Shown: piece after piece, positions 701-24,961 of the stretch
Numbering within the stretch: position 1 is the first letter of the stretch
How the letters are laid out: every line of letters starts with the position of its first letter
Virus record (IMG/VR): IMGVR_UViG_3300035666_000147
Coordinates: 1 to 25,459 of that record
DNA from: a virus
DNA: 25,459 nucleotides
Reading direction: 5' to 3' (one strand)
The notes under the pieces: generated by a model
Database searches by the model: none
Told to the model about the DNA's origin: nothing
The model's input: the letters and a program-made list of their open reading frames with translations, nothing else
Made by a program: the position numbers and the translations under genes

Positions 701-2586
701 TGCCATTACTACGACTATTCCTCAAGCCAGGAATTGACAAACAAAACACGGAATACGGCGCTGAAGGCGGATGGATCGACGGTGATTACATCCGTTTTCG
801 TTATGGCCTGCCTGAAAAACTAGGTGGTTGGACATGGTTCAATGAGCAAGCGCAATACCTCATTGGTATGGTCAGCGATGTGCTTACATGGAATGATCTG
901 GGTGGTCTACCTCACCTGATCGTTGGCACCACACGCAAGCTCTATACTTTTTATGGCGGCACGTGGTACGACATTACGCCCCTTCGTGAAACGACAGCCC
1001 CTGGAGCGGTAACCTTTGCAGCTTCGGCAGGCAGCGATATCGTTACGGTAACTGATACTTCTCACGGCGCTATTGTCGGTGACTTTGTGACTTTCAGTGG
1101 CGCAGTCAGCTTGGGCGGCAATGTTACAGCGGCCTTTTTGAACGCTCAGTTTCAGATTCAAACCGTACCCACGGCTAACACCTACACCATTAAAGTGGGT
1201 GTCACCGCTGATGGCAGTGATTCGGGCAACGGTGGCGGTGCTGTGGTTGGCGCTTATCAGATCAACGTGGGATCAGATCAATCGTTTCAAGACCTTGGCT
1301 GGGGCACGGGAACCTGGAGCCTTGCGACTTTTGGCACCCCTCGACCTGCTTCCGCAGCACTTACCTTGACCTCTCGGGTATGGCAGTTTGATAACTTCGG
1401 TGAAAACATCGTCTGTCAGCTTGTGCAAGGAAAGGCCTACCTATACGACGTCAGCAGCGTAGGATCCCGCGCTACGTTGCTAATTGGTGCGCCTACCAAG
1501 ACAACCTACTCGTTGATTTCCACGCCTGATCGTCACATGGTTTGCTTGGGCACGGAATCTACGGTTGGCGACCCAACGACCTACGATCCCATGTTTGTGC
1601 GCTTCTCAAACCAGGAAGACATCAATACGGCAGGATCCTTTGTCGAATCAGCAACCAACACAGCCGGTGGTCAACGGCTCACGGACGGTACGTTCATCAT
1701 CAGCGGCATTCGCTCACGCGGACAGATTCTGATCTTCACCAACAGCGCATTGCACGGCATGCAGTATGTAGGGCCTCCGTACACCTTCAGCTTTCAGCAG
1801 CTTGGCGCAAACTGCGATTGTGCAGGCCCGCATGCAGCGGTAGACGTCAACGGCGTGGCTTTTTGGATGGGCATCAATGCCTTTTACATGTTTGACGGTA
1901 CGGTCAAGAAGCTTGCCTGCACGGTCCAGGACTACGTGTTCAAGGACATTGAGTTCCGGCAGTCCAATAAGTTTCACGCAGGCGTGAACTCCCAGTTCAA
2001 TGAGGTCACATGGTGGTATTGCTCTGAAGGATCGGATCAGATTGATCGCTTTGTGACTTATAACTATCTCGAGAATGTCTGGTCCGTGGGCAGTATGGCA
2101 CGCACCGCCTGGAATGACATTGGTACTTACAACTATCCTGTAGCTGCTGAATACCTCAATGCCAGCACCGAAACGCCCGTGGATGGCCCAATTTATGGGC
2201 TGACCGCTGGCAGATCGGGGATCTATTTACAAGAGGTGGGCGTGAACGGTGTGGATGGCGACAGCCAAACGGCCATCGCGTCTTACATCAAGTCAGGCTA
2301 CTTTGACATTGGCGACGGTGACCAAGTCATGTACATGCGACGATTCATTCCTGACTTTAAGAATCAGGTCGGTGATCTGACAGTGCATTTGCTTTTGCGG
2401 TACTACCCGCAAGAGACCGCCAATCCGAGTTCCTTGGATCCTTATGTCATCACACCCACAACCAACAAGGTCGACACCCGTGCGCGGGGCAGGCAGATTA
2501 GTCTGAGGATTGAAAGCGATCAAGAGGACGATAACTGGCGCTACGGCACGATGCGCGTTGACATCCAACCTGATGGGTTACGATGA
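700..2586 (+). CDS. Large beta-rich virion protein, possibly P22 gp10-like stabilisation/tail protein
   Basis: The 628-residue protein starts at an ATG overlapping the previous TAA. The opening ([15 protein letters not shown] followed by [14 protein letters not shown]) is characteristic of a family of phage tail proteins. Repeated short strands with periodic Gly/Trp/Tyr suggest a beta-propeller core. Around residues 110-195 lies an inserted Ser/Gly/Thr-rich beta domain ending in GAYQINVG. The later segment about a surface residue pair ([14 protein letters not shown], then [14 protein letters not shown]) and the C-terminal ISLRIES...MRVDIQPDG resemble the overall layout of P22 gp10, which plugs and stabilises the portal after DNA packaging. 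That comparison is an inference from layout, not an alignment. No enzyme motif is visible. It is a structural protein with good confidence; the exact role is uncertain. Confidence 0.8.
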
Positions 2587-3497
2587 GCAAGATCACTAAT
2601 GTTCGACTGCCTAATGCTTCGCCGCAATACAGCCCGGAGCAGTTCAACCAATTAGTGCGATCGCTTGAGCAGGTCATTCTGCTGCTCAACAGCACCTACG
2701 GATCCGTCTCTGATCAAAACATCTCAGGTGCACAGTCTTGGTTTAACGGAAGTCCTGGGCGTGCAGGGCAGTCGGGCTCGCAAGGGGTATTGCTGCCCTA
2801 CGGCGCATTCCAGGATGGCACGGATCAAGTAGCAGGATCCACGACTTCTGCTTATGCCGTCAGGCTCAACACGACGGACTACACCAATGGTGTCTACATT
2901 GGCTCACGCACGGCAGTCTTCACGGGTACGATCGATGACGGGACACCCCCTGGCGCGGGGACCGTGCTTAACGTAACAGCAGTCACTTCAGGAACCATTG
3001 AGCTTGGCATGCAGTTAACAGGCACGGGCGTGACCGCTGGAACACGAATCACGGCCTACGGTACAGGAAGCGGCGGCACAGGCACTTACACGGTAAACAC
3101 ATCCCAGGAAGTGACAAGCACCACAATCACAGGTGATCTTCCCTCAAAGATTACGGTGGACTATGCAGGTCTTTATAACCTGCAATTCAGCTTCCAGTTT
3201 GTCAACACCGATACGCAAATCCACGATACGGACGTGTGGTTTAGGAAGAACGGCACCAACATCGCTAACAGTAACAGCCGTTTTTCCGTTCCTAACAGTC
3301 ACGGTGGCGTAGATGGTCATTTAATTGCCGCGCTTAACTTCTTCTTGGACATGGATCCAGGAGACTTTGTTGAAATTATGTGGCATACGGATGATGTTCA
3401 GGTATTGATTGAGCAACTGCCCACCGCAGCCTCTCCGACGCGTCCCGCAACGCCTTCTGCCATCGTCACGATGTCATATGTATCTTCTTTGGTGTAG
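2583..3497 (+). CDS. Tail fibre-like structural protein with adhesin-type beta insert
   Basis: The 304-residue protein starts with an ATG that overlaps the previous stop (ATGA). The first 60 residues contain a polar helix ([19 protein letters not shown]), then a short collagen-like [13 protein letters not shown] turn. Residues 118-185 form a Gly/Thr/Val-rich unit ([20 protein letters not shown], then [13 protein letters not shown]) that recurs in many phage fibre and appendage proteins. The C-terminal 110 residues ([17 protein letters not shown], then [13 protein letters not shown]) look like a jelly-roll head of the C1q/TNF kind seen at fibre tips. It is therefore likely a receptor-facing or decoration protein. 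It sits between two other virion genes. The call rests on composition and motif similarity. Confidence 0.7.
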
Positions 3498-3499
3498 CC

Positions 3500-3832
3500 A
3501 TGGCCAATAAATATCTTCGCAAGAACGTCATCCCGTCCGCAGCCACAGAGACTGAGTTTTATGTGGTGCCGACGGCCAACACGGCCATCTTGCGCTCGTT
3601 ACGGGTGACCAATGCTAACGCTACACGCACCACAATTACGATTTCCCAGTACGACGCAGGCAGTGCAACCGAGCATTTTTTGTTGAAGTCTTATCCCCTG
3701 CCGCCTAATACGACCTTTGATGTGTTCAACGGTGTGCCCTGCGTGTTACTGGAAGGCGATGAGCTTGCTGTTGAATCGTTACTTTCAGACTGCCACTTCT
3801 ATCTTTCCTATGTAGAAGTGGACAGGAACTAG
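3500..3832 (+). CDS. Small beta-sandwich virion protein
   Basis: The 110-residue protein follows the fibre-like gene after a 2-nt gap, with an ATG at the start of MANKYLRKNV. The sequence is an alternation of short strands: FYVVPTANTAILRSLRVTN, TTITISQYDAG, FDVFNGVPCVLLEGDELAVES and CHFYLSYVEV. There is no signal peptide and no membrane segment. This is the pattern of small capsid-decoration or tail-accessory proteins in podovirus-like genomes. The product is probably structural, and its neighbours on both sides are virion genes. No motif gives a specific role, so the functional label is an inference from composition and position. Confidence 0.7.
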   Translation: MANKYLRKNVIPSAATETEFYVVPTANTAILRSLRVTNANATRTTITISQYDAGSATEHFLLKSYPLPPNTTFDVFNGVPCVLLEGDELAVESLLSDCHFYLSYVEVDRN

Positions 3833-3918
3833 CGTGATCCGTCATAATTCCAGCCATCTTTCGCGTCCTTTCCAGGCGCGCGGTCCATGGACCATGGCTC
3901 AATCGGAAAGGTACTAAC
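3833..3918. promoter_or_regulatory. Intergenic gap with a 12-bp palindrome
   Basis: This 86-nt gap is the longest within the late block. It contains a perfect 12-bp palindrome, GGTCCATGGACC, at 3882-3893, partly repeated directly (CCATGGACCATGG). No convincing -35/-10 pair and no hairpin with a T-run is visible. A purine stretch (GGAAAGG, 3904-3910) precedes the next ATG and probably serves as its ribosome binding site. The palindrome may be an operator, a small RNA stem or chance. Confidence 0.3.
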
Positions 3919-5844
3919 ATGGACGAAATGCAAGGCGTAATGGCGCTCCCCGAAGCTCAAGGTGCAGGGATGCGGCCCGAGGACATGGCGTTGATCGAAC
4001 AGATCCGCCAAAACGTGCCTCGTCAAGAGATTACTCAAGAGTTCCTGGCAGCAGGCGAGCAGGCCGATCCCCAGGCCGTGTCCGAGTTCAAACAAGAACT
4101 CGCAGGTCTTGAACTTACGCCCGATGAGTTGAACAAGCTCAATACGATGGTGGATGCCATCCTTGCTGCACCGCAAGATTACGCCAGCTTACGGCGCGCC
4201 TATCTTGCCGAGGGCATGCCCGAAGATCTCTTGCCTGAGCAGTTTGACCCGGCATTTTTTGCCGCTTTAAACATGGCGATCGACACGATTGCCATGAACC
4301 CCGGATCACCGCCCCCGATGGCCATGGCCATGGGCGGGGTGGCAGATCTTGCTGCTTACGGTCGCAATGGCGACACGATGCTTGCGCACATCACACCGCA
4401 AGAAGCTGCAATGCTCAAGCGCATGGGTGGCTCAGGTACGATCAATCCGTATACGGGATTGCCTGAATACGCCAGTATCTTTAAGAAGATCGGCAACGCA
4501 GTCAAAAAGTTTGCCAAGAGCACGGTGGGCAAGGTCATTATTGGCGTGGGAGCCAGTCTTTTTCTTGGTCCACTGGCAGCTAGTTTCTTGGGGCCTACAT
4601 TAGGGGCGGCAGCAACTGGTTTTGCAGCTAGCGCGGGAACAACGCTCTTATCTGGCGGAAATCTCCGTGATGCACTCAAGGCCGGTGTGTTTGGAGGCCT
4701 TTCCGCAGGCTTATTCCAAGGTGTCACTCAAAGTTTTCAGGGGTTACCAACAGGGGCGGAGACAGCGGCTGCTGGCGCTCCTTCTGTTTCCCCAACAGGA
4801 GCGCCTCCTCCCGGAGGAGCGTTGCCATCACTAGCTGAAACAGCAGCAGTAGACGCGGCACAGACTATTCGTTATCCAGGAAGCAGTATTGACTACAGTC
4901 AGGCCTTTGACGTTGCTTCAGCGGGACCCGTTGAACTTGCAAGACCTATTCAACCGGTTCCTGTGCAGGCTACGCCGGATCTTGGTCCAATGCCTCCTAT
5001 GTCGGCAGGACCTCCTCCAGCATTCCCAGATTCACGGGCGGGATTTGATATATCGGCACGTCTTGAAGGAACAAATACGGCATTTTCCCCTGGTGCGGTT
5101 GCCGGGACTGGGCAGCAGGCTGGCGGAGGCGTCATGGACCTTATCCGACAAGGTGAATATGGTAAGGCTGCCGGTGCTGCTTATGACCGTATCATGCCAG
5201 AGGCACTCGGAGGACAGCGTGGAGCTGTTACGCCTGACATGATCAATGACATGCGTTCTAAAGCCACAGATCTCGTTATGGCTAAACACCCGTCGTTCGC
5301 TGCACAGGCAATGACAGATCCTACTGCAAAAACCATTTTTGATAAGATGGTGACTGACCAAGCCACCAAGTTGGCTACTCCTGGCATGCTATCCACCTAC
5401 GGCCCACTCGCCGCTCTCGGCATTGGCGCACTAGGTCTGTCGGGAGGCTTCAAGACCAAAGACGCCCAAATGCCTGACCTGTTCAAGGGCCCCACAGGCT
5501 TCCAGCTCGCCAGGATGTACCCAAGCATGTACGGCTTGCAGTATGGTGGCGTGCGTCCCACAGCTTACGGCGGCATGTACCTGACCCCTCCCGGCTACGC
5601 TGAAGGCGGCGGTGTGATGGACACGCCTCAAGCAATGCGCGTGGGTGGCAAAACCTACCCTCGCAAGATCGGCGCGATCAACGGTCCAGGGACCGGGACG
5701 TCGGACTCTATTCCCGCGATGCTCTCAGACGGTGAGTTTGTGTTCACGGCCAAAGCAGTACGTGCCATGGGCCAAGGCTCACGGCGCAAGGGCGCTAAAA
5801 AGATGTATAAGCTAATGAAGATGCTGGAAGGAAAAGCAGCATGA
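3919..5844 (+). CDS. Internal virion protein with hydrophobic Gly/Ala segment
   Basis: The 641-residue protein begins at an ATG preceded by GGAAAGG. The first 130 residues are acidic and helical (EQIRQNVPRQEITQEFL and similar). A Met/Gly/Pro-rich linker follows. Near residues 190-255 there is a long Gly/Ala/Leu hydrophobic stretch (KVIIGVGASLFLGPLAASFL) that could enter a membrane. The middle is Pro/Ala/Gly-rich and low in complexity. The C-terminus is compact and basic: KTYPRKIGAINGPGTGTSDS, then DGEFVFTAKAVRAMGQGS and an RRKGAKKMYKLMKML tail, a segment I associate with large virion proteins of environmental phages. A role in the virion interior or DNA ejection fits the composition and the next three genes. 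No enzymatic motif is seen. The specific function is unknown. Confidence 0.65.
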   Translation: MDEMQGVMALPEAQGAGMRPEDMALIEQIRQNVPRQEITQEFLAAGEQADPQAVSEFKQELAGLELTPDELNKLNTMVDAILAAPQDYASLRRAYLAEGMPEDLLPEQFDPAFFAALNMAIDTIAMNPGSPPPMAMAMGGVADLAAYGRNGDTMLAHITPQEAAMLKRMGGSGTINPYTGLPEYASIFKKIGNAVKKFAKSTVGKVIIGVGASLFLGPLAASFLGPTLGAAATGFAASAGTTLLSGGNLRDALKAGVFGGLSAGLFQGVTQSFQGLPTGAETAAAGAPSVSPTGAPPPGGALPSLAETAAVDAAQTIRYPGSSIDYSQAFDVASAGPVELARPIQPVPVQATPDLGPMPPMSAGPPPAFPDSRAGFDISARLEGTNTAFSPGAVAGTGQQAGGGVMDLIRQGEYGKAAGAAYDRIMPEALGGQRGAVTPDMINDMRSKATDLVMAKHPSFAAQAMTDPTAKTIFDKMVTDQATKLATPGMLSTYGPLAALGIGALGLSGGFKTKDAQMPDLFKGPTGFQLARMYPSMYGLQYGGVRPTAYGGMYLTPPGYAEGGGVMDTPQAMRVGGKTYPRKIGAINGPGTGTSDSIPAMLSDGEFVFTAKAVRAMGQGSRRKGAKKMYKLMKMLEGKAA

Positions 5845-7196: not shown

Positions 7197-9572
7197 ATGA
7201 AGTCAAAAGTATTGGACCGACCCATGTTTAAGGGCGGCAAGATGGATCCCGACGAGGTCGGGATTATGTCCATTTTGATGGGCGAAGATGATGACATGGG
7301 CGAGGACGAAGATGAGTCCGACATGGCCAAGCTCATGGATCGTCGGCCTGACTCGCCTGAGATCCTGATGAACAATCTTCGCGGCGATGTGCGCTCGATT
7401 GACGCGCGGTTCGAGGAGCTTGCTGATATGGTCGGCTACGACGCTGCCCAGCAAACGCCCCCTGAAGTGCTTGCGCTCTTGCAGCCTGTGTTAGCTGCCG
7501 AACAGCAGGGCATCGCTGCCTTACCGGCCATGGCCCCTGGAGCTGCACCAGCAGCAATCCCCACCCCGCCACCGCCAATGGCAGCGCCCGCTGGTCCAGG
7601 CCTACCTCCAGGGGCCGCTCCTCCAGAAGCAGCGGGCATTGGCTCACTGCCCATGGGCATGGCCAAGGGAGGGCCTGTAGTCCAGCGTTTTAGGAATGGC
7701 TCATCTGAGAGGGCGGTTGAGTCCATGGATAACGAGCCCTCGGAAACTTCCGATATCGCTCAAGTCCTTGAAGGCCTGCGCGGGAACATGACTCAGGAAC
7801 AAGCCAAAGCGCTTTACGGATCAGATTTTGTTGAGCGAGCGAGACAGGCCGCGTTAAAGCGCATGGAGCCTTACCCTGTTCCCAAGTTTGAAAACGTACT
7901 TAAAGAGAAGATTCCCTTTTATCAAGGTTTGCTTGGGCAAGACAAGAGCTTGACCCAAGCGCAAATGCTTTTTGACATTGCAGGAGCAGGACTTGCACTG
8001 GCCGGAAATGTGGATCCACGCACGGGGCAACCGATGCGGGGTTCTCTTGCGTCTCGCATTGCGGGTGCTGCCAGTCAGCTTCCGGCGCAGATTGGTGCGC
8101 GTGCTTCGGAAGCAGAGAAGATGGCGCAACAAATCAAGATGCTAGGCATACAGGCCGCTGAGAAAGAAGTGTCCGCAGCCCGTACCGAGGCATTGGCGCG
8201 GGAGAAGGGTCTGGCTGATTTCTTTGGCAAGCTTGTACCCAAGACAGGAGCAGGTGCTAATAAGCCTGTTATTAGAGAAATCGCCGGAGAGGTGCGTGTT
8301 TATGATCCAGCTAAAGGTGGTGATATAACGAGTCCGAGTTCTTGGATTTCACTTGGGAAAAAACCTGCCTCTGGCTTCAGCGAATCAGATTTTAATCAGT
8401 TTAGGACTGAATACGCCCCCGCTATTCTAGATGGCACCGCTACGGCAGAACAAAAACGTAACTTTTTATCAGCCGTAACTGACTATACGCAGGCTAGGTG
8501 GGTACCTACCACAAGGACAGAGACAAACCCCACTACCAAAGAGACTTATTTAGTCCAAAAAATGGAGGAAATTCCAGGCAAAAAATTGGATGAAATCCAG
8601 CAACGTGCTCTTAACAAGCTCCGGGCAGAGATGGGCAAGGACTTTAATAGCGTCCTTAAGCAAAGTGCTGCAATCACCCCAGACAGAGCTCCTCAAGAGC
8701 CTGCTGCTACAACTACAGGTGGCAGTGCTGCTTCGACTACAGGGACCGCTCGTGTCCCAACCACCGGTGGCAGTGCTGCGCCAGCCGCGCCTGCTGTCGC
8801 ATCGACCACGGCTCAAGGACCAAGGACCGCGTCTGGTACCACAACGACTCCTTTGTTTACACAGCCTGCTGCTCAGTCTAACGTTAACTTTAGGTTCGGG
8901 ATCCAAGGCTCTGGCATGACGCCTCAAGCGGCCTTGTCGAGCGGTACAGTCGTGCCTACTATCATGGATATCACTTCCATGGGTCTTAGCACAGGCATTA
9001 TTAGTGTTCCTGCTGCTGCGATTACAAGCGTTCCTGCTATGGGACAGTTTGCTCCAGGTGAGCAACAGGCGGTTGCCTACGCTAGGCAAGCCATACCACT
9101 TATTTCTCGTTCTTTGCTTGATGCAGACAGGGTAACGGTTACTGAATTGCAGATGAAGGAAAAGGAACTTGAGTCACTGCTTCCAACGATTAGGACTAAC
9201 CCAACCGCAGCGGGCCGTGAACTGTTGGCGCTTGATTCAACACTGGCTGCAAGAGAGATGTCCCTTAAGAATAAGATAAACAACCCTGATTTAGCGATTG
9301 ATTTAAAGAACGGGTATCGTGATCGCTTAAGTGATGTTCAAGCCGCTCGGAATGTTTTAGGCGTAAGAGACACACCTCGTTTTTCGACGATTGATCAAAT
9401 GGAATCCTACATAAAAGGATCACCAAAAGGATCGCCCATCTACTTTTATTTCATGCCCGATGATAGGACGCTTAAGGGCTATACGGATGATGCAGGAAAG
9501 AAAGTTCCCGGCTTAAACCCAGCTGATGCGCGAAGGTTCAGGGAAAATCCGTTTGTGGTAATCAACCGATAA
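7197..9572 (+). CDS. Large internal virion protein, acidic N-terminus with Pro/Ala linker
   Basis: The 791-residue protein has a strong ribosome site (TAAGGAG) just before the ATG. The first 50 residues include a dense acidic run (GEDDDMGEDEDESD). Residues 100-155 are a Pro/Ala linker, then MAKGGPVVQRFRNGS, a motif class seen in phage virion proteins. Residues 185-350 are helical and Ala/Lys/Glu-rich. A Thr/Ser/Ala linker spans about residues 500-560, and the last 230 residues look globular and end in NPADARRFRENPFVVINR, a form reminiscent of C-terminal domains of virion-associated proteins. No lytic transglycosylase motif was found. It is read as a structural or ejected protein from context and composition. 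Confidence 0.65.
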   Translation: MKSKVLDRPMFKGGKMDPDEVGIMSILMGEDDDMGEDEDESDMAKLMDRRPDSPEILMNNLRGDVRSIDARFEELADMVGYDAAQQTPPEVLALLQPVLAAEQQGIAALPAMAPGAAPAAIPTPPPPMAAPAGPGLPPGAAPPEAAGIGSLPMGMAKGGPVVQRFRNGSSERAVESMDNEPSETSDIAQVLEGLRGNMTQEQAKALYGSDFVERARQAALKRMEPYPVPKFENVLKEKIPFYQGLLGQDKSLTQAQMLFDIAGAGLALAGNVDPRTGQPMRGSLASRIAGAASQLPAQIGARASEAEKMAQQIKMLGIQAAEKEVSAARTEALAREKGLADFFGKLVPKTGAGANKPVIREIAGEVRVYDPAKGGDITSPSSWISLGKKPASGFSESDFNQFRTEYAPAILDGTATAEQKRNFLSAVTDYTQARWVPTTRTETNPTTKETYLVQKMEEIPGKKLDEIQQRALNKLRAEMGKDFNSVLKQSAAITPDRAPQEPAATTTGGSAASTTGTARVPTTGGSAAPAAPAVASTTAQGPRTASGTTTTPLFTQPAAQSNVNFRFGIQGSGMTPQAALSSGTVVPTIMDITSMGLSTGIISVPAAAITSVPAMGQFAPGEQQAVAYARQAIPLISRSLLDADRVTVTELQMKEKELESLLPTIRTNPTAAGRELLALDSTLAAREMSLKNKINNPDLAIDLKNGYRDRLSDVQAARNVLGVRDTPRFSTIDQMESYIKGSPKGSPIYFYFMPDDRTLKGYTDDAGKKVPGLNPADARRFRENPFVVINR

Positions 9573-9585
9573 CGGGGACTATTTG

Positions 9586-12500
9586 ATGGCTGAAGCAACT
9601 AACAAACCACCCTCTGATCGCCTGCGAGAGCTTGGCTACGAACCTTCCACGGTTTTTTCGGACGTCAAGGACACCGCCGCTCAGATTTTTGAAACGATTC
9701 GGCCTGAGTCTTCTTACCCGTCTGACCCTCGCTTACAGGGTCTAGGCATCGTTATTGGCGGTTCGCCAACACTGACTGATCGAGCAGTAGAAGCTGGTTA
9801 TCGGACAGGGCAGGGCATCGTCGAAACATCGCCTGCTGTGGCAGGAGGAATAGCCGGACTTCGCGCCGGTCAACTGACGGGTAGTCCTGCCATAGCTGCA
9901 ACCCTGGCTGGATTGGGCTTTACAGGGGGTCTTGTAACCGGTCAAGCCCTTAGTGACCGATTTTTTGTCAAGCCTCCTGAACAAGAGCGTCCATATGCGG
10001 AAGCTTTCAAATCATTTGGATCGGCTCTCCCGTTTATGGGCTTGCCTTATCTCGGCCCTGGACCCCGTGTTGCAGGCGCAGCACTGTTTCGCCCAGCAAC
10101 ACCACCCGCTGAACTCGCAAAAATTGAAGCTGTTCTTCAGGCAAGACAGGCGGGCAAGGGCGGACCGTTGCCATCTGTGGGAGAAATTGTCCAGGCTGTT
10201 GACCAAGCTGTGTTTGCTGGTAAGAAGACTGCCTTAACCACCCCAAGAGTTACCGCTGGGCAAGAGGTCATGGCCGGAACAGGCGCTGGATTAGGAGCGT
10301 TTATCGCTGAAGCTTTTCCAGGATCAAACCAACTTGGCGTTAGTCAAGATGTTAACCGTATGCTATGGGAAACAGGTCTTGGTACATTCAGTCCAGTCAA
10401 TATTTTGGCAGGATTTTCAGGCAACATCGGAGACACCGTCAAGAATATGGTGTCGCGCTTTACGACAAAAGAGGGTGTCCTTAATCGATCGGGCGCTCTC
10501 CTGCAAGAATATTATGACAAACGTGGAACCGACACCAACGAGTTGCTGCGTATATTGGATGACCCGTCCGCTGTTTCGACGTTAACAACTGTAGAAAAAC
10601 TGGGCGACTTTGCGGATGTTGGGCGGTTGGCCAACATGCTCAAAGAACAGAGCAAGGTGCTTGGCGGCGAAATGGCGCTCCGCACGGAACAAAATGTCCG
10701 TTCGATAGCCAATCTAATTAACCTGCTCGGTGATGTTGGAACACCTGACTCATTAGCACTGGCGGCAGGCTTGCGAGAGACCATGTTTAAGGACATGCTC
10801 AAGCATCGAGCAACGATTGCCTATGCTCAAGCAGCACAGGCCAACGCAAAAATTCCAAAAAACAAAGCGGATACTAAAGAAGAGCAAAGTCTTCGCACAC
10901 GGGAGATCTTGCAGGGGTCTCTTGATGATTCAAGACAGGTTGAGGGTTTCTTTTGGGATCTGGTACCCAAGCGTGTGGAGGTCCAAATTCTGGATGTTCA
11001 GCGCCAGATAGGCGCTGGGAAACTGTCTAAGAAAGAAGGCGATGCACAGATACAGCAGATCCTGCAAAGTAACACCATCAGGCCTGAAAAATTTATTAAG
11101 ACGTATGAAGATCTCATGGCCGACATGTCAGTGGCAGAGACGATGCCTGCTGAAGCAACGGCCCTTTATACGCGCTATAAACGCGCAACCTTACCTGACG
11201 ATCAGGTGCTTGAGGAAATCCGTGCATCAAAAACGCCCCAAGGTGCTCAATACAGAAAACTTCTTCAAGACAGAGAAAACGAAACCAGTTCATTTTTGGC
11301 AAGGGAAATCCCCTCCTCCTCTTTCTTAAAAGGGCTCAACGAAAAGATAAGCACTTTTGAGGCGGAAGCCTTAAAACAGGCTCGTGCTGAAAGCGCCATG
11401 ACCGTCGGTGATATCGTCGGTGACCGTGGTGCATTATTACGCAAACTGCGAGATGCGACGGCTAAAGATAATAATGCTAATGCTGCTCGGATCTTTCAAC
11501 GATTAGAGGGTTCGTTACTTGATGACCTTGAAGGGGTCCCAGGAAATGCGGCAAGCACTGCAAGAACGTTTAGTCGCACGTTACATGACTTCTTCACACG
11601 CACTTTTGTCAACGACGTTTTGACGTTCGATCGTACGGGTGGCCCTAGAATTGCTCCTGAAGTGGTACTTAGTAAAGCTTTCACAGGCAAGCCTGAAGAC
11701 ATAGCGTTGCGCTTTAGGGCAATGGAAAATGCGGTGAATATGCTTCCTGCTTTGTACGATGAAGCTGCGACGCTCGGTGGTCCTGGATCTCAGGAACGAT
11801 TGGCAGCCATCACGCCAAAAATCCTTGCAGATGCAGCTGATCGAGTCGTTTCATTTAACGACGCTGCCGGTCGTTATCTTCGGTTGCTTGTCAACAATTT
11901 TGTTGACCCTGACACGGATCGAGTTACAAACCCAGAGGCATTACGTCGCTTTGTCAACAAAAACAAAGAACTTTTTCAACGATTCGGGCTCGCTGACATC
12001 GCTGACAATCCACGCCGCTTGGAAGAGTCTCTACGGACCACGCTTGATGCTAATAAGCCTGAGAATGTTCAGCAAAGGATCTCGGAGCTTGCTTTCGCCA
12101 ATTTAATTGGCAACGAGAAACCTTACGTAACGATTGAGAATATCCTCAGTCAAAAGAACCCCAAGACTGCTCAAGAACTTCGTCGCCTTGTTCAGTTTGC
12201 AAAAGCTGCCGATTCCACGCTGTTCCAACAGCAGTTGATCCGTGTGCAGCGCATGGCCGATCAAGCAACAGCCAAGGCTGCGGAACTGGAGCAAGCAGGT
12301 ATTCAAGGTCCGGAATTAGATGGCTTGACGCAGCAAGCGCAGCTTTATCGGTCGCGGGCAGCGGAATTGCAAGAGTTACTTGGCTTATCGGCAGGGTTTA
12401 CTGGACCTGCAAAGCCGATTGACGCTATGAAAGGTTTACAAAAAGCTTTCCATGACTACGCGTTCATGAACGCCAGTGGCTCAACAGATCCAACAACGGG

Positions 12501-13224
12501 TGGCGGATTTAGTTGGAAAAAGTATTACGACACCTTCTTTGCACCGCTGCGTCCAAGAGAACCATCCCTGTCACAGACACTCGTTGACGCTGGCGTATTC
12601 ACAGGCGCTGATATGAACCGGCTAAAGACCATGCTCGGTGAGGCTAGGCGCATTCAAGAATCACCTAAATTCCCAGGTAGGGCTGAGGAAGGTGAAGTGC
12701 TCAAGCGCGCTGACATGTTCACAGACTTGGCACTTCGCTTGATTGGTACGCGGATGTACGGCGGAAGCTCCCTGGTCATGGAAGCTGCCATGTCGCGCTT
12801 CATGCGCAACCTCTTTGATAACATGCCAGTCGAAGGAATTCGCCGGACGATTGAGCAGTCGATGCTTGATCCGAAACTTCACGCAGACTTGTTACGTCGA
12901 GGCGGCAATGCAAGGCAGGTGGCCTCTACGGGGCGACGTGTGTTTAATGCGCTTTACGGTGCGGGTATTACGGCCATGACGCCGGAAGATTTGTCCGAGG
13001 AAGAAGAGCGTTTGGCCGCTACGCCGCCCACTATGGCGGAGCGCACTGTAGCCCGTATAGAGAAAAAACTCCCGCCAGCACCGCCTTCACGCGGGCTTCT
13101 TGGCTCATTCGCCCCGGCTCAACAGCCCGGACGCCCTCAGGCACAGACTCCAAGCGGTCAGCCCAGTCCACAGGCGCGTGACATGCTGCGTCAGCTTTTC
13201 CCCTTTGACGCAGTGTTACGATAG
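9586..13224 (+). CDS. Very large internal virion/ejection protein
   Basis: The protein has 1212 residues from the ATG at 9586 (a TTG immediately upstream is in frame but is less likely; GGGGAC at 9574-9579 is the ribosome site). Residues 60-110 carry Gly/Ala-rich hydrophobic segments (GIAGLRAGQLTGSPAIAATL and nearby) that could insert in a membrane. The rest is mainly alpha-helical and charged, with many Arg/Glu/Ala helices. The tail is a Pro/Gln linker followed by a short LRQLFPFDAVLR end. Size, position and helix content fit the largest ejection protein of podoviruses (the T7 gp16 role), although no transglycosylase motif is recognisable here. The last 34 nt overlap the 3' end of the leftward nuclease gene. 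Confidence 0.65.
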   Translation: MAEATNKPPSDRLRELGYEPSTVFSDVKDTAAQIFETIRPESSYPSDPRLQGLGIVIGGSPTLTDRAVEAGYRTGQGIVETSPAVAGGIAGLRAGQLTGSPAIAATLAGLGFTGGLVTGQALSDRFFVKPPEQERPYAEAFKSFGSALPFMGLPYLGPGPRVAGAALFRPATPPAELAKIEAVLQARQAGKGGPLPSVGEIVQAVDQAVFAGKKTALTTPRVTAGQEVMAGTGAGLGAFIAEAFPGSNQLGVSQDVNRMLWETGLGTFSPVNILAGFSGNIGDTVKNMVSRFTTKEGVLNRSGALLQEYYDKRGTDTNELLRILDDPSAVSTLTTVEKLGDFADVGRLANMLKEQSKVLGGEMALRTEQNVRSIANLINLLGDVGTPDSLALAAGLRETMFKDMLKHRATIAYAQAAQANAKIPKNKADTKEEQSLRTREILQGSLDDSRQVEGFFWDLVPKRVEVQILDVQRQIGAGKLSKKEGDAQIQQILQSNTIRPEKFIKTYEDLMADMSVAETMPAEATALYTRYKRATLPDDQVLEEIRASKTPQGAQYRKLLQDRENETSSFLAREIPSSSFLKGLNEKISTFEAEALKQARAESAMTVGDIVGDRGALLRKLRDATAKDNNANAARIFQRLEGSLLDDLEGVPGNAASTARTFSRTLHDFFTRTFVNDVLTFDRTGGPRIAPEVVLSKAFTGKPEDIALRFRAMENAVNMLPALYDEAATLGGPGSQERLAAITPKILADAADRVVSFNDAAGRYLRLLVNNFVDPDTDRVTNPEALRRFVNKNKELFQRFGLADIADNPRRLEESLRTTLDANKPENVQQRISELAFANLIGNEKPYVTIENILSQKNPKTAQELRRLVQFAKAADSTLFQQQLIRVQRMADQATAKAAELEQAGIQGPELDGLTQQAQLYRSRAAELQELLGLSAGFTGPAKPIDAMKGLQKAFHDYAFMNASGSTDPTTGGGFSWKKYYDTFFAPLRPREPSLSQTLVDAGVFTGADMNRLKTMLGEARRIQESPKFPGRAEEGEVLKRADMFTDLALRLIGTRMYGGSSLVMEAAMSRFMRNLFDNMPVEGIRRTIEQSMLDPKLHADLLRRGGNARQVASTGRRVFNALYGAGITAMTPEDLSEEEERLAATPPTMAERTVARIEKKLPPAPPSRGLLGSFAPAQQPGRPQAQTPSGQPSPQARDMLRQLFPFDAVLR

Positions 13225-18693: not shown

Positions 18694-20192
18694 TGAGCAC
18701 GCAAAAGGTATTCGGCCCTCCAGGGACGGGCAAGACCACGTACCTATTGGGCGTGGTGCAAGACGAGTTGTCCAAGGACACCGCCTCAAACAAGATCGGC
18801 TACTTTGCCTTCACACGCAAAGCGGCTAACGAGGCGCGTGATCGGGCGATCGTGAAGTTCCCGCACCTGAACCCTACTACGGACTTCCCGTGGTTCAGGA
18901 CGCTTCATTCGCTGGCCTTTCGCTGCCTTGGGATTAACAAGAGCGAGATGATGCAAGATGAAAACTACAAAGAGTTTGGCAGAAGCTGTGGTTTGGAGAT
19001 CGCTACAGAAAACGACACCGATGGGTTCGTAGCGCGAGCAGACAACGCCATTCTGAACGAGATCAACCTTGCACGGATCAAGGGCCTTGATCTGAAGACC
19101 CACTATAACCAGTCCTCGCTCGATATTGAGTGGTTTCACTTCGAGTATGTGGAGCGCGCCTATCGCCAGTACAAAGGCGAGAATGGACTGCTTGACTTCA
19201 CCGATCTGCTTGAGTTGATCGTGCAAGAACCCAATCGCTTACCGCGCCTTGATGCACTGATCGTGGATGAATCGCAAGATCTCTCGCGCCTTCAGTGGCA
19301 GTTAGTCAAGGATCTTGCCAAACGCTCCACGCGTGTTTACCTAGCGGGCGATGATGATCAGGCGATCTACAACTGGGCAGGTGCTGATGTTGATTCGTTT
19401 CTCACCTTCCCTGGCGAAGTCAAGGTGCTGGATAAGTCTTACCGTATCCCTGCAAAGGTTCACGCCTTAGCCGAGCGCGTGGTTAAGCGCATCCACCATC
19501 GACAGCCCAAGGAGTGGTCTGCTCGTGATGAGCAGGGCAACATCCAAACCTATAACCATTTTTCCCAGGCCGACATGACCGATGGCGAGTGGCTCGTGAT
19601 GGCCGCTGCAAACTACATGCTGGATGAACTGCCTGAGTGGCTCAAGAGTCAAGGGCTGCTTTTCGAGCGCCATGGACAACGGAGCATTGGCGAGAAGGTG
19701 CTCGCAGCGGTCTATGGTTGGGAAGGGTTGCGCAAGGGCAATGAGATCCCGCTATCGGTTGCTAAGACGATCTACTCGTATCTCGACCCAGGGCTCATTG
19801 CTAAAGGATTTAAAACCTTGAACAGTGCGCCCGAGGATCGGATGTACTCGATCAAGGATCTGCATGCGAGGTGGGGCCTGTTGACCGATGGCATCTGGCA
19901 CGAGGTGCTGACCAAGATCAGTGCAAGCCAGCGCCAGTACATCATTGCTTTACTTCGACGCGGTGTGAAATTAAATGCAGCACCGAAGATAAAACTTTCC
20001 ACGATCCATGGCGCAAAAGGTGGAGAAGCTGATAATGTTCTACTTTTGACAGACCTGTCTACCAAGTTTGCCAAAAGTTATGACACTAACCCCGACGACA
20101 TCAATCGGTTGCTCTATGTTGGTATCACGCGCACTCGTAAAACCTTGCACTTGGTCATGCCACGCAGCAACCAGAAAGGCTTTCGACTGTGA
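18693..20192 (+). CDS. UvrD/Rep-like superfamily 1 DNA helicase
   Basis: The 499-residue protein has the full SF1A motif set. Walker A is GPPGTGKTT (8-16), Ia is AFTRKAANE, motif II VDESQD (191-196), III GDDDQAIYNWAGA (219-231), IV SYRIP (249-253), V STIHGAKGGEADNV (436-449) and VI RLLYVGITRTRK (472-483). It is shorter than host UvrD (about 720 residues) and appears to have reduced accessory subdomains, as in phage replicative or recombination helicases. It unwinds DNA with 3'-5' polarity in this family; polarity here is inferred. The ATG overlaps the primase TAA (TAATG), and its TGA overlaps the polymerase GTG (GTGA), so the three proteins are translationally coupled, consistent with a shared replisome role. 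Confidence 0.93.
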   Translation: MSTQKVFGPPGTGKTTYLLGVVQDELSKDTASNKIGYFAFTRKAANEARDRAIVKFPHLNPTTDFPWFRTLHSLAFRCLGINKSEMMQDENYKEFGRSCGLEIATENDTDGFVARADNAILNEINLARIKGLDLKTHYNQSSLDIEWFHFEYVERAYRQYKGENGLLDFTDLLELIVQEPNRLPRLDALIVDESQDLSRLQWQLVKDLAKRSTRVYLAGDDDQAIYNWAGADVDSFLTFPGEVKVLDKSYRIPAKVHALAERVVKRIHHRQPKEWSARDEQGNIQTYNHFSQADMTDGEWLVMAAANYMLDELPEWLKSQGLLFERHGQRSIGEKVLAAVYGWEGLRKGNEIPLSVAKTIYSYLDPGLIAKGFKTLNSAPEDRMYSIKDLHARWGLLTDGIWHEVLTKISASQRQYIIALLRRGVKLNAAPKIKLSTIHGAKGGEADNVLLLTDLSTKFAKSYDTNPDDINRLLYVGITRTRKTLHLVMPRSNQKGFRL

Positions 20193-23017
20193 CGCTACCA
20201 CTATTCCCGCCCACCTCCGAGTGGGTTCCCCCGGCCTCTTTTCCCGATCTATCTGACGCCAAGGAGATTGCAATTGATCTGGAAACGTGCGACAGAAACA
20301 TGGAACGGTTCGGCCCCGGATGGCCAAGAAATGATGGTTACATTGTCGGCTACGCCATTGCTGTTGAAGGATGGCGAGGCTACTACCCAGTTGCTCATGA
20401 GGGTGGAGGTAACCTTGACCGTGGGATTGTTGAGCGATTCATTCGACGTGTGCTTGACCTTCCATGTCCCAAGATCATGCACAACGCCGCCTACGATCTT
20501 GGATGGCTTCTCGCCTCTGGATTTAATGTGCGGGGTCGAATCATTGACACCATGGTCGCTGCTGCTTGCATCGATGAAAACCGATTCAGCTACGCCCTCA
20601 ATGCCCTCGGTTTCGATTACCTCAAAGAGGTCAAATCTGAGCAGGGACTAAAGGAAGCCGCACAAGACTTTGGCGTCCATGCCAAGAAAGAACTCTGGCG
20701 CTTGCCTGCCATGTTTGTGGGCGAGTACGCCGAGCAAGATGCTGCGCTCACGCTTAAGCTTTGGCAGCACTTCAAGACGGTCTTACGCAAGGAAGAAGTT
20801 GAATCGATCTTTGATCTAGAAACTGAACTTCTACCTGTGCTGGTTGGCATCACCAAGCGGGGCATCCGCTTTGATCGCGATCGAGCAACCAAGCTCGTGG
20901 GCGAGATGCAAGACAAAGAAGCCCAACTGGTTAAGGCTATTCGCAAAGCCTGCGGGTCGCCCGTGGACATCTGGGCCGCAGCCAGCATCGCTACAGGGTT
21001 TGACAAACTCGGGATCCATTACCCAAGGACCACGAACGGACTGCCAAGCTTTACCAAAAGTTTTCTTGACACGCACGAGCACCCGATCTGCAAACAGATC
21101 GTTGAAGCACGCGAGCTCAACAAGACCCACGGCACGTTCTTGCAGCCTTACTTGGACTTCTCTGCGCACGATGGCCGCATCCATCCGCACATCAACCAGA
21201 TCCGATCCGACGATGGCGGCACGGTCACAGGCAGGCTTTCCATGGCCAATCCTAATCTTCAACAGGTCAGCGCAAGACACGAGGTTCTTGGTCCATTAGT
21301 CAGGGGGCTTTTCCTTCCGGAGGAGGGTCAAAAATGGGCCGCAAACGACTTCTCGTCTCAAGAACCAAGGATCTTGATTCATTACGCACATTTATTAGGT
21401 CTTTCTGGTACTGACGAAGTCGTGAAGGCTTATCGAGAGAATCCGAGAACAGACTTCTATCAGATCGTAGCCGACGCAGCGAACGTGCCACGGAAGGTTG
21501 CGAAGACATGTATTGCAGAAGGCCAACTTGTACTCACTGATAGTGGGCTAGTCCCCATTGAAAAAATAACCACGGCACATAAGGTATGGGATGGGGTAGA
21601 ATGGGTGAACCACGATGGCGTGGTGTTCATGGGTAACAAGGAGGTAATCACCTATGGCAATCTCACCGCAACACCGGATCACGACATCTGGACAGTCGAA
21701 TCAGGGAAGATTTCTCTCGGGCTCGCAGCATCAAGACTGGAGACACCTATACGAACCGGAAATGCTGGGCAAGCAATTCGGTATGTGGACAGTGGTCAGC
21801 AGGGAGATCCAACGTCGTGGCAAGCATCACTATACAAGGGTGCGATGCGCCTGTGGCGTCGAGGACTGGAAGGTTTTAGACAACTTGAAACGTGGGAAGT
21901 CAAAACAATGCAACTCCTGTGCCATGACGGAGCGTCATCGTCTGGCGGGCAATTTATTAGTCTCTTCCCGTGGGGTATCTCTTTTACAAAAAAGAGCGGT
22001 TTCAATCCTCCAACGCTGCAACAATCCAAACGACAAGGGTTATGCTCATTATGGAAGTCGTGGCATAACTTGCGAGTTCGAGTCGGTCAAGGAATTGGTG
22101 GAGTATTTGCTCACAGTGTCCCCAGCCGAGGATTGGATTGGCAAACAGATCGATCGGATCGACAACGACAAGGGTTACGTACGTGGGAACATTCGGTGTG
22201 CCACGTCCTCACAGAACAGTGCCAACCGTCGCATAACACGCTATGTTACGTATCGTGGTCAGAGAGTTTGTTTAGGTCATGTTTGGCATCTTGTGAAAAC
22301 GGATCACCCAAACTTCCAGTTTACGAGCGGTTGGACAGTGAAGCTGATCAAACAAGGTGTGGAGCCCGATCAATTGCCCACGTATCAACGCGTCGGTATG
22401 CGAAGGTGTACGACATACTCAATGCCGGACCCCGCCATCGTTTCACTGTATCGAACGCCTTAGTATCAAATTGCACCCTGGCCATCATGTACGGCGCCGG
22501 AAAAGCAAAGATGGCTCAACAGCTTGATATGCCTCTAGATGAGGCCAGTGAACTCATCAAAACCTTTCATCAAAAAGTGCCCTTCTTGCGTGGCACCGTG
22601 GATGCCGTGATGCGCCGGATCGAGCATCGCGGATCCGGTGGCGCGATCCGTACCTTGTTAGGACGCAAGTGCCGCTTCCCGCTTTGGGAGCCCACTGAGT
22701 GGGGTATCAATAAGGCACTGCCCTTTGAGGAAGCCTCCATCAAATATGGACCAAGAATCAAGCGTGCAATGACCTACAAAGGACTGAATCGATTGATTCA
22801 GGGGTCAGCAGCGGATCAGACCAAGAAGGCTATGGTTGAACTTCATAAAGCAGGGTTTGACCTTTTGCTTTCCGTGCATGACGAGCTTGCGCTATCCGTG
22901 AACAAGCGTGAAGAGGCTGAAGAGGCCGCACATATCATGGCTAATGCTGTGCAGCTTGAAGTACCGTCAGTAGTGGACGTTGAGATAGGTGAGACGTGGG
23001 GAGCGTCGATGGGATGA
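20189..23017 (+). CDS. Family A DNA polymerase with 3'-5' exonuclease, interrupted by an intein
   Basis: The 942-residue precursor starts at GTG 20189 inside the helicase stop. The exonuclease shows ExoI D30/E32 (IDLET), ExoII HNAAYDLGWL (98-107, D103) and ExoIII Y180/D184 (GEYAEQDAALT). The polymerase shows TGRLSMANPNLQQ (347-359), motif A DFSSQEPR (387-394), motif B RKVAKT (435-440) resuming as CTLAIMYGAG (762-771), and motif C SVHDEL (895-900). An intein (441-761) splits motif B, so the enzyme is active only after splicing, giving a 621-residue mature protein. No 5'-3' exonuclease domain is present. The residue equivalent to E. coli Pol I position 762 is Leu (L764 of the precursor). It is the replicative polymerase of the phage and the last gene before a terminator candidate. 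Confidence 0.95.
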   Translation: MTLPLFPPTSEWVPPASFPDLSDAKEIAIDLETCDRNMERFGPGWPRNDGYIVGYAIAVEGWRGYYPVAHEGGGNLDRGIVERFIRRVLDLPCPKIMHNAAYDLGWLLASGFNVRGRIIDTMVAAACIDENRFSYALNALGFDYLKEVKSEQGLKEAAQDFGVHAKKELWRLPAMFVGEYAEQDAALTLKLWQHFKTVLRKEEVESIFDLETELLPVLVGITKRGIRFDRDRATKLVGEMQDKEAQLVKAIRKACGSPVDIWAAASIATGFDKLGIHYPRTTNGLPSFTKSFLDTHEHPICKQIVEARELNKTHGTFLQPYLDFSAHDGRIHPHINQIRSDDGGTVTGRLSMANPNLQQVSARHEVLGPLVRGLFLPEEGQKWAANDFSSQEPRILIHYAHLLGLSGTDEVVKAYRENPRTDFYQIVADAANVPRKVAKTCIAEGQLVLTDSGLVPIEKITTAHKVWDGVEWVNHDGVVFMGNKEVITYGNLTATPDHDIWTVESGKISLGLAASRLETPIRTGNAGQAIRYVDSGQQGDPTSWQASLYKGAMRLWRRGLEGFRQLETWEVKTMQLLCHDGASSSGGQFISLFPWGISFTKKSGFNPPTLQQSKRQGLCSLWKSWHNLRVRVGQGIGGVFAHSVPSRGLDWQTDRSDRQRQGLRTWEHSVCHVLTEQCQPSHNTLCYVSWSESLFRSCLASCENGSPKLPVYERLDSEADQTRCGARSIAHVSTRRYAKVYDILNAGPRHRFTVSNALVSNCTLAIMYGAGKAKMAQQLDMPLDEASELIKTFHQKVPFLRGTVDAVMRRIEHRGSGGAIRTLLGRKCRFPLWEPTEWGINKALPFEEASIKYGPRIKRAMTYKGLNRLIQGSAADQTKKAMVELHKAGFDLLLSVHDELALSVNKREEAEEAAHIMANAVQLEVPSVVDVEIGETWGASMG
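21638..21644 (+). promoter_or_regulatory. Internal Shine-Dalgarno for the nested endonuclease
   Basis: AAGGAGG lies in the intein coding sequence (reading Asn-Lys-Glu-Val in the polymerase frame) 9 nt before ATG 21654. The stretch AAGGAGGTAATCACC is complementary to the 3' end of bacterial 16S rRNA over nearly its whole length. Immediately after it, TAA at 21645-21647 closes the endonuclease frame upstream, so that frame needs a new initiation here. Confidence 0.85.
21654..22463 (+). CDS. HNH-like homing endonuclease encoded out of frame inside the intein
   Basis: The 269-codon ORF is in the +1 frame relative to the polymerase. From residue 37 it reads as a standard phage endonuclease: MLGKQFGMWTVVSRE, a four-cysteine zinc ribbon (C65, C67, C86, C89), RCNNPNDKGYAHYGSRGI (121-138), QIDRIDNDKGYVRGNIRCAT (165-184) and QNSANRR, then a C-terminal DNA-binding-like VTYRGQRVCLGHVW repeat segment. 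This is the YGGRGI/DRIDN class of phage HNH-like proteins, in which the first His of HNH is replaced. The first 36 and last 18 or so residues are shadows of intein blocks B and F/G. The strong ribosome site favours ATG 21654; ATG 21762, where homology starts, is an alternative. It would cut intein-free polymerase alleles to drive homing (inference). Confidence 0.88.
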   Translation: MAISPQHRITTSGQSNQGRFLSGSQHQDWRHLYEPEMLGKQFGMWTVVSREIQRRGKHHYTRVRCACGVEDWKVLDNLKRGKSKQCNSCAMTERHRLAGNLLVSSRGVSLLQKRAVSILQRCNNPNDKGYAHYGSRGITCEFESVKELVEYLLTVSPAEDWIGKQIDRIDNDKGYVRGNIRCATSSQNSANRRITRYVTYRGQRVCLGHVWHLVKTDHPNFQFTSGWTVKLIKQGVEPDQLPTYQRVGMRRCTTYSMPDPAIVSLYRTP

Positions 23018-24155: not shown

Positions 24156-24425
24156 ATGGAAGAACGTCAATGGAAGTCCGGTTCAGATGTCCTAGCAAGG
24201 TTTCGTAATCAGCCTGCTGCCAAGACGCTTACGCGTTTTGATCTGCGTGGTGCAAAGGAGATTGATAGCCAGCCCATCGAAGAAGTCGAGTACAGCTTTC
24301 GCGGTGTTGGCCTTGCAGTCAACATTAAGCGTGAGCCACGCGAGACCTGGATCCCACCGAGTGAGGATCCTTTTTACAAGGCCAAGTGGTCTTTTTACAA
24401 AGCTCTATTTTCAACAGGAGAGTAA
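24156..24425 (+). CDS. Small phage protein of unknown function
   Basis: The 89-residue protein starts at ATG 24156 with ACAGGAGAAAGA just upstream. It begins MEERQWKSGSDVLARFRNQP, contains a charged region with a predicted strand pair (PIEEVEYSFRGVGLAVNIKR), and ends in a Trp/Phe/Lys-rich segment (DPFYKAKWSFYKALF). It is soluble, with no metal-binding pattern. The following gene starts 2 nt after its stop, and the shared AGGAG near 24416-24420 serves that gene. No family is recognised. Confidence 0.75.
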   Translation: MEERQWKSGSDVLARFRNQPAAKTLTRFDLRGAKEIDSQPIEEVEYSFRGVGLAVNIKREPRETWIPPSEDPFYKAKWSFYKALFSTGE

Positions 24426-24427
24426 TC

Positions 24428-24961
24428 ATGAAGAACAAACGTAAAGAAGACGTTGCACCAGAGGCACCTGCCAAGAAGGTTTCACCCTTGAAAGGCCGCA
24501 AGCTTGGGCCACGCAAAAAGCCTTCGCCCCTGAAGGGACGCAAGCTTGGGCCCTCACTCTTGAAAGGCCGCAAGCTCGGTCCTCGCAAGCCCAAGAAGGA
24601 AGGGATCACTCGCGCTCAAATTGCCAAGGAACTCGAGCCTGGATTGAACGCGCTCTTTGGTCTGGAGTTCAAGAATACGGTACAGGCACCAAGTGTTAAT
24701 ACGATTTTACAAGAGCGTGCGCTGCAATATGGCACCTTTGTCTCGCTTGCCAAGACGGCGCAAGAGTTTAAGTCAGTGCTCTACAGGGAGCTTGGCTCAA
24801 GGAACAAGCGCCTTGCCGATGACCAAGCAGAAGCTTTGGACATGATCATCCATAAGATTGCCAGAGTAATCAACGGCGATGCCAATCACGTTGATACTTG
24901 GAATGACATTGCGGGCTACGCCACACTCGTTGCCGAGCGGCTGCAAGGCAGGACGCTATGA
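24428..24961 (+). CDS. DUF6378-like protein with basic repeat extension
   Basis: The 177-residue protein starts at ATG 24428 (AGGAG 8 nt upstream). Residues 18-56 hold three copies of the basic unit LKGRKLGP, separated by short Lys/Arg/Pro linkers. The C-terminal domain (about residues 92-175) contains ILQERALQYGTFVSLAKTAQ, then DDQAEALDMIIHKIARVING and WNDIAGYATLVAERL, which I recognise as the DUF6378 phage domain, of unknown function. That domain normally stands alone, so the repeat extension is an added nucleic-acid-binding-like arm (inference). The stop overlaps the next ATG (ATGA). The domain call is fairly confident; biochemical role is unknown. Confidence 0.8.
   Translation: MKNKRKEDVAPEAPAKKVSPLKGRKLGPRKKPSPLKGRKLGPSLLKGRKLGPRKPKKEGITRAQIAKELEPGLNALFGLEFKNTVQAPSVNTILQERALQYGTFVSLAKTAQEFKSVLYRELGSRNKRLADDQAEALDMIIHKIARVINGDANHVDTWNDIAGYATLVAERLQGRTL
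24485..24582 (+). repeat. Three in-frame tandem-like repeats encoding LKGRKLGP
   Basis: Three related 26-nt units begin near 24485, 24527 and 24557. Each contains an AAGGG/AAAGG-CGCAAGCT core and encodes LKGRKLGP. The spacing is 42 and 30 nt, both multiples of three. Unit 2 differs from the others at several synonymous sites, so the peptide is conserved beyond the DNA. Confidence 0.8.

Follow-up and report, generated by a model that had tools for sequence, protein, structure and literature searches.

Full-length bifunctional class 1 inteins such as PI-SceI carry an in-frame homing endonuclease of the LAGLIDADG or HNH type. Fractured genes, in which split inteins have free-standing nuclease genes between their halves, were reportedly described by Dassa et al. 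in 2009. Out-of-frame HNH insertions have been found in phage methylases as the ShiLan domain and Pacc40 (Arsenault et al. 2025, PMC11855218), in elements that have neither a detectable splicing domain nor a detectable ribosome site. A putative intein-encoded HNH lying out of frame in a brucellaphage terminase is mentioned in a short note (PMC4422536, 2015), and actinobacteriophage inteins with a 'non-canonical architecture' (Gosselin et al. 2025, bioRxiv 10.1101/2025.01.02.630785) are cited in PMC11855218 for overlapping frames and, judging by that citation, may include the out-of-frame arrangement. The HNH ORF of I-PfoP3I, by the account in PMC3428280, is nested in a group I intron of a cyanophage DNA polymerase. 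Here we analyse a viral DNA polymerase gene in which a complete intein overlaps an HNH gene in another frame. With a probability of roughly 0.88 we read the locus as a homing intein whose nuclease would be a separate, internally initiated product of the out-of-frame HNH gene.

The window, i.e. the whole stretch of DNA that was analysed (25,459 nt), is an IMG/VR virus fragment of 25.5 kb whose genes include those for virion structural and tail proteins, helicase and primase. Two long ORFs at 7197-9569 and 9583-13221 (791 and 1213 aa) have no PHROG match, and a DUF6378 protein encoded at 24386-24961 has repeated KGRKLGP motifs in a row at its N terminus. The features of the polymerase gene are listed in Table 1. 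An initial annotation, made from the letters and an ORF list, had given coordinates for a nested ORF, its ribosome site and an upstream stop, all of which are exact when checked against the ORF list and the sequence. It had also claimed that the polymerase frame (frame 0) stays open through the intein and returns to splicing blocks, and this is what we find: frame 0 is continuous over the whole precursor, reading without a break through Cys1, TxxH, VYDILNAGPRHRF (block F) and a final SN followed by Cys. The span it reported does lie inside an intein; the intein itself is wider.

Table 1 Features of the polymerase gene, its intein and the nested gene in the window.
Feature	Coordinates	Strand	Basis
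Family A DNA polymerase with 3'-5' exonuclease domain, 942-aa precursor	20189-23017	+	DNA_pol_A 3.6e-51, DNA_pol_A_exo1 9.1e-9, phrog_17 8.8e-109
Intein, frame 0, 321 aa / 963 bp, Cys1 to Asn321	21509-22471	+	Splicing blocks kept at both ends; exact absence in L297
N-terminal splicing region, aa 1-85	21509-21763	+	pLDDT ~95; resembles DnaE/DnaB/RecA mini-inteins; frame-0-codon substitutions at intein nt 1-180
AAGGAGG, Shine-Dalgarno-like, 9 nt before nested ATG	21638-21644	+	Same place in relatives
TAA in nested frame, ending 6 nt before nested ATG	21645-21647	+	Sequence
Predicted HNH endonuclease gene, +1 frame, 269 aa	21654-22463	+	phrog_374 E=1.6e-27; AlphaFold pLDDT 87.6; purifying selection
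Block B, TPDH (T55PDH58)	21671-21682	+	Within N-terminal splicing region
Frame-0 linker, aa 93-291 (HNH gene read out of frame), predicted disordered	21785-22381	+	pLDDT mostly 33-60; no invariant columns
Zinc-ribbon cysteines C65, C67, C86, C89 of nested nuclease	21846-21920	+	Invariant or nearly so, alignments A1 and A4
HNH core, aa 117-195: R121, C122, Y133, R136, G137, R168, Y175, N179, N191	22002-22238	+	phrog_374, alignments, PacI likeness
C-terminal extension of nested nuclease, aa 196-245, probable DNA-binding region	22239-22388	+	Helices in AlphaFold model
C-terminal splicing region, aa 296-321, ending in VYDILNAGPRHRFTVSNALVSN	22394-22471	+	pLDDT ~95; frame-0 codon periodicity back here

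The intein sits between KVAKT and CTLAIMYG of the polymerase, with Cys+1 of the C-extein (22472-22474) directly after Asn321. The residues of a class 1 intein (C1, T55PDH58, N321 and Cys+1) are all present in frame with the polymerase, and in an alignment of relatives (A5) C1, T55 and H58 are invariant and N321 is kept in at least 90% of sequences. The penultimate residue is Ser, where His is usual. AlphaFold, given the window's sequence and an alignment of relatives, orders the two ends of the frame-0 product, leaving the long stretch between them at low confidence. The Hint fold is matched by Foldseek to the NpuDnaE, SspDnaB and MtuRecA mini-inteins (probability 1.00, best E 9.5e-4). Searches of Pfam and NCBIfam, and a sequence search of the PDB, gave no useful match for the isolated intein; the same searches gave none for the HNH.

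The nested ORF starts 145 nt after the intein start, i.e. in the +1 frame, covers 84% of it and stops 8 nt short of its end. As the initial annotation had proposed, this ORF is a predicted zinc-ribbon HNH endonuclease: besides the PHROG match to phage HNH endonucleases, the cysteines and the HNH-region residues of the family are kept, and 13 columns are invariant between the nested protein and its relatives. In the AlphaFold model, built from the window and an alignment of relatives, the nuclease is ordered, with a core pLDDT of ~95. Foldseek found no significant match for the model; VIA-align placed the HNH enzyme PacI (3ldy) top for residues 101-195, with a Z of 6.5 over 80 residues, which by itself is below the level that proves kinship. 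The C-terminal extension is missing from shorter relatives such as L016-L019 and is variable in alignment A1.

The start of the nested gene bears on whether the nuclease would be a protein of its own. An AGGAGG-like site and an ATG at intein nt 145 are found repeatedly in the large +1 clade, and the mean Shine-Dalgarno duplex energy is -9.3, compared with -7.0 under silent reshuffling. The site is missing in some relatives, and alone it is weak evidence, because frame-0 K-E-V codons partly dictate it; it was dropped as a proof of initiation in favour of a silent-codon test of the ATG. For the nested ATG to exist, frame-0 codon 49 must end in T, a silent choice at its third position, and 45 of 59 eligible inteins have this T vs. 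21.8 expected from their own codon usage; the sequences compared are related and not fully independent, so the simulated probability should not be read at face value. These data favour selection of the nested start codon via silent codon choice. Programmed ribosomal frameshifting from the polymerase frame, which would yield a fusion of N-extein, N-intein and HNH and no free HNH, is unlikely given these data, as the ATG is under selection and the Shine-Dalgarno-like site is properly spaced in most members with a nested ATG. There is also little room for it in the window, since the nested-frame TAA confines any shift to a few nucleotides. A fusion would be possible in the group with the HNH in +2, where the open stretch of the nested frame sometimes reaches far upstream (in L134, and in the first intein of L031 from before the intein start).

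Evidence that the overlap codes in two frames comes from relatives. Across 95 homologous nested ORFs, no frame-0 stop is present, compared with ~771 expected when HNH codons are synonymously reshuffled with local codon usage; in L007, the window's near-identical copy, 13.6 would be expected. The initial annotation had argued from a chance of 1e-5 to 1e-6 for an open polymerase frame, which is not the right test, and the homologue-based tests are much stronger. Substitutions between relatives favour frame-0 third positions over intein nt 1-180 (47-79%). From nt ~180 to the C block, the preference in most stretches (mostly 40-70%) is for nested third positions, equivalent to first positions of frame 0, and in the last intein block the pattern returns toward frame 0. 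Summed over 265 pairs, nested third positions hold 50% of changes even though these are frame-0 first positions. Divergence at fourfold nested sites (0.51) is below that at extein ones (0.65), as expected if frame-0 stops are barred. There is no detectable amino-acid constraint on frame 0 in the overlap, where replacements caused by silent nested changes have a mean BLOSUM score of 0.50 vs. 0.47 expected (73 pairs); being no more conservative than random, they suggest that frame 0 need only stay open here. This supports the view that frame 0 outside the splicing blocks is a tolerated disordered linker and no second designed protein. As evidence from sequence comparison, the relatives settle that the overlap is coding, in agreement with the dual coding first proposed, and the purifying-selection test on the +1 frame is clearly positive.

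Could the nested HNH be a relic, formerly expressed, with its frame kept only by frame-0 constraint on the DNA? Some relatives do have a damaged nuclease gene: L203 (at 3371) and L059 (at 2820) have nested nonsense codons and L006 and L207 have in-frame HNH deletions, all four with frame 0 open. Such breaks of the +1 frame are seen as rare decay only. Moreover, changes in the overlap track the nested codons, whereas constraint from frame 0 would yield the reverse pattern, and the nested frame is intact in the window and in L014, at 72% nested protein identity, making a relic very unlikely. The damaged copies also qualify the idea that nesting protects the nuclease gene from decay. Frame-0 stops and frameshifts would be purged because the polymerase is needed, so this part of the idea stands; nonsense codons and in-frame deletions can still kill the nuclease, as in these four loci.

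To see how general the frame relation is, we gathered relatives from phage records, viral contigs and bacterial genomes, scored the loci with HMMs for the intein ends and the HNH, and retained 98 non-redundant inteins (85% nucleotide clusters). The HNH is out of frame in 95 of these (+1 in 81, +2 in 14) and in frame in none; the remaining three are mini-inteins. As this survey favours full-length matches, it was repeated blind to the HNH, with only intein residues 1-62 as query, and again no HNH was in frame among 69 clusters, of which 64 had it out of frame (56 in +1, 8 in +2), four were mini-inteins and one was shortened. Among the hosts are phages or prophages of Streptococcus, Gardnerella, Clostridia, Salmonella, Escherichia, Sodalis, Hamiltonella, Caulobacter, Shewanella, Paenibacillus and Erwinia. 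PolA (at several sites) and ResIII/DEAD helicases are among the interrupted genes. The polymerase of L031 contains two inteins (3001-3882 and 4378-5157), one with its HNH in +2 and the other with it in +1. Assembly error is an unlikely source of the frame relation, since it is unchanged in L007 and L008, two near-identical contigs, and in dozens of divergent relatives. Going by these counts, an out-of-frame predicted HNH is the normal architecture of the window's intein family and no isolated oddity. Two further claims of the initial annotation, separate initiation of the nuclease and its uncoupling from the splicing protein, likewise have support at the sequence level.

In the public records examined, the nested nuclease mostly goes without annotation or is entered as the product of an intron. 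Salmonella phage Ent1 (L291) has its intein annotated and the nested nuclease overlooked; a neighbouring helicase gene (4951 onward) has a conventional LAGLIDADG intein by annotation, so that both intein designs would coexist in this phage. In Sodalis phage SO-1 (L292, NC_013600), the nested HNH (2578-3336) is annotated as the product of a 'type I self-splicing intron', and the sequence has intein ends and an HNH in the +2 frame. If that annotation applied to the window, a group I intron carrying the HNH would be removed at the RNA level, and HNH genes are indeed common in phage group I introns. Against this stand the lack of any Rfam family match at the gathering threshold anywhere in the window, the open frame 0 in all 95 relatives despite the 771 stops expected, the Hint splicing residues kept in frame 0 together with frame-0 codon periodicity, and end blocks that fold as an intein in the AlphaFold model and by Foldseek, which together leave a group I intron highly improbable. 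A spurious +1 ORF overlapping the polymerase gene by chance is refuted by HNH homology, conserved cysteines, position-specific selection and the selected start codon, even though some exteins have long alternative-frame openings (at least 180 aa in 8 of 90). The median longest alternative-frame opening is 253 aa in the inteins vs. 93 aa in extein stretches of the same length, and no covering open second frame was found in free-standing HNH genes of the same family.

With regard to mobility, the polymerase of L297 is 93% identical to the window's over 2.6 kb and aligns without gaps through the junction, with the intein precisely absent. Around position 1618 of L297, the conserved motif is YSAG and not YGAG, in a junction otherwise nearly identical to that of the window. 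For the window's own lineage, this one empty allele is the main evidence of probable intein mobility. Two other empty alleles (L298 and L299) match the window well further out and fall to 62-68% identity within 100 nt of the site, a drop for which co-conversion could be the source. In L017 and L018, the inteins are 87% identical and the flanks 69-73%, which we count in favour of horizontal spread. Split forms also occur: in L122 (2278-3836), L126 (2281-3860) and L138 (2260-3803), PolA is divided into an ORF for N-extein and IntN, an HNH ORF and an ORF for IntC and C-extein, with both polymerase genes overlapping the HNH gene, which is the same HNH as in the nested family, in different frames. 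These split polymerases make the nested arrangement grade into fractured genes and could mark a path connecting nested with fractured inteins, in either direction. Finally, a tree that includes 54 free-standing HNHs places the nested ones in three groups, each with a single frame (+1 clade B, n=69, which holds the window; +1 clade A, n=12; and +2, n=14), and well-supported branches need at least two transitions between nested and free HNH, a minimum given that the free HNHs were gathered by similarity and are a biased sample.

The homing-intein reading would then work as follows. The HNH gene lies out of frame at the position normally taken by an intein's nuclease domain. Ribosomes reading frame 0 would make the polymerase precursor, from which the intein would excise itself with a disordered linker of ~200 residues looped out during splicing, and other ribosomes would initiate internally, at the AAGGAGG/ATG, with the free HNH as their product. 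Polymerase alleles that lack the intein would be cut by this HNH close to where the intein inserts, and the element would spread when the cut is repaired from the copy that carries it. The arrangement suggests that intein and nuclease need not be one protein, and that ~800 bp of DNA can be shared by two products, with one frame a real gene and the other a linker needing only openness. It makes testable how inteins acquire nucleases (with at least two separate captures and three fixed-frame clades), why nucleases insert at the very position where split inteins are naturally divided, and how overlapping genes arise and persist. Experiments are practical in cultured phages that carry the arrangement (a Salmonella Jerseyvirus and phages of Escherichia and Caulobacter), and linker-tolerant inteins have uses in protein engineering. 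More tentatively, such loci might form a large unrecognised class of mobile phage polymerase and helicase inteins in which the nuclease is always out of frame and internally initiated, with at least two origins from free-standing HNH genes, and be an intermediate on the way to split inteins and fractured genes; we regard this broader picture as possible but somewhat doubtful.

Like PI-SceI-type inteins, the window's intein has Hint halves at its ends, a nuclease coded between blocks B and F and a conserved site in a replication gene. Unlike in those inteins, its nuclease has a start and a stop of its own in another frame and cannot be part of the intein protein, the frame-0 reading yields a disordered linker in place of the nuclease, and none of 95 relatives has the nuclease in frame. 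With fractured genes it would share a nuclease made as a separate product between intein halves, whereas its halves belong to one continuous polypeptide (20189-23017) that the nuclease gene overlaps. In that an intervening sequence of a phage DNA polymerase gene holds an HNH ORF, the locus resembles that of I-PfoP3I, where, as that enzyme is described in PMC3428280, removal is by a ribozyme at the RNA level and not by the protein splicing predicted here. The brucellaphage terminase HNH is set apart, by its description in PMC4422536, by its different host gene. As in ShiLan and Pacc40 (PMC11855218), a zinc-binding HNH is hidden out of frame while the frame of the phage host gene stays open; unlike there, the HNH lies inside a complete intein and a ribosome site is present. 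Out-of-frame HNHs as such were already known (PMC11855218, PMC4422536), and what is added here is the generality of the arrangement, the evidence of selection and the silent-codon start signal.
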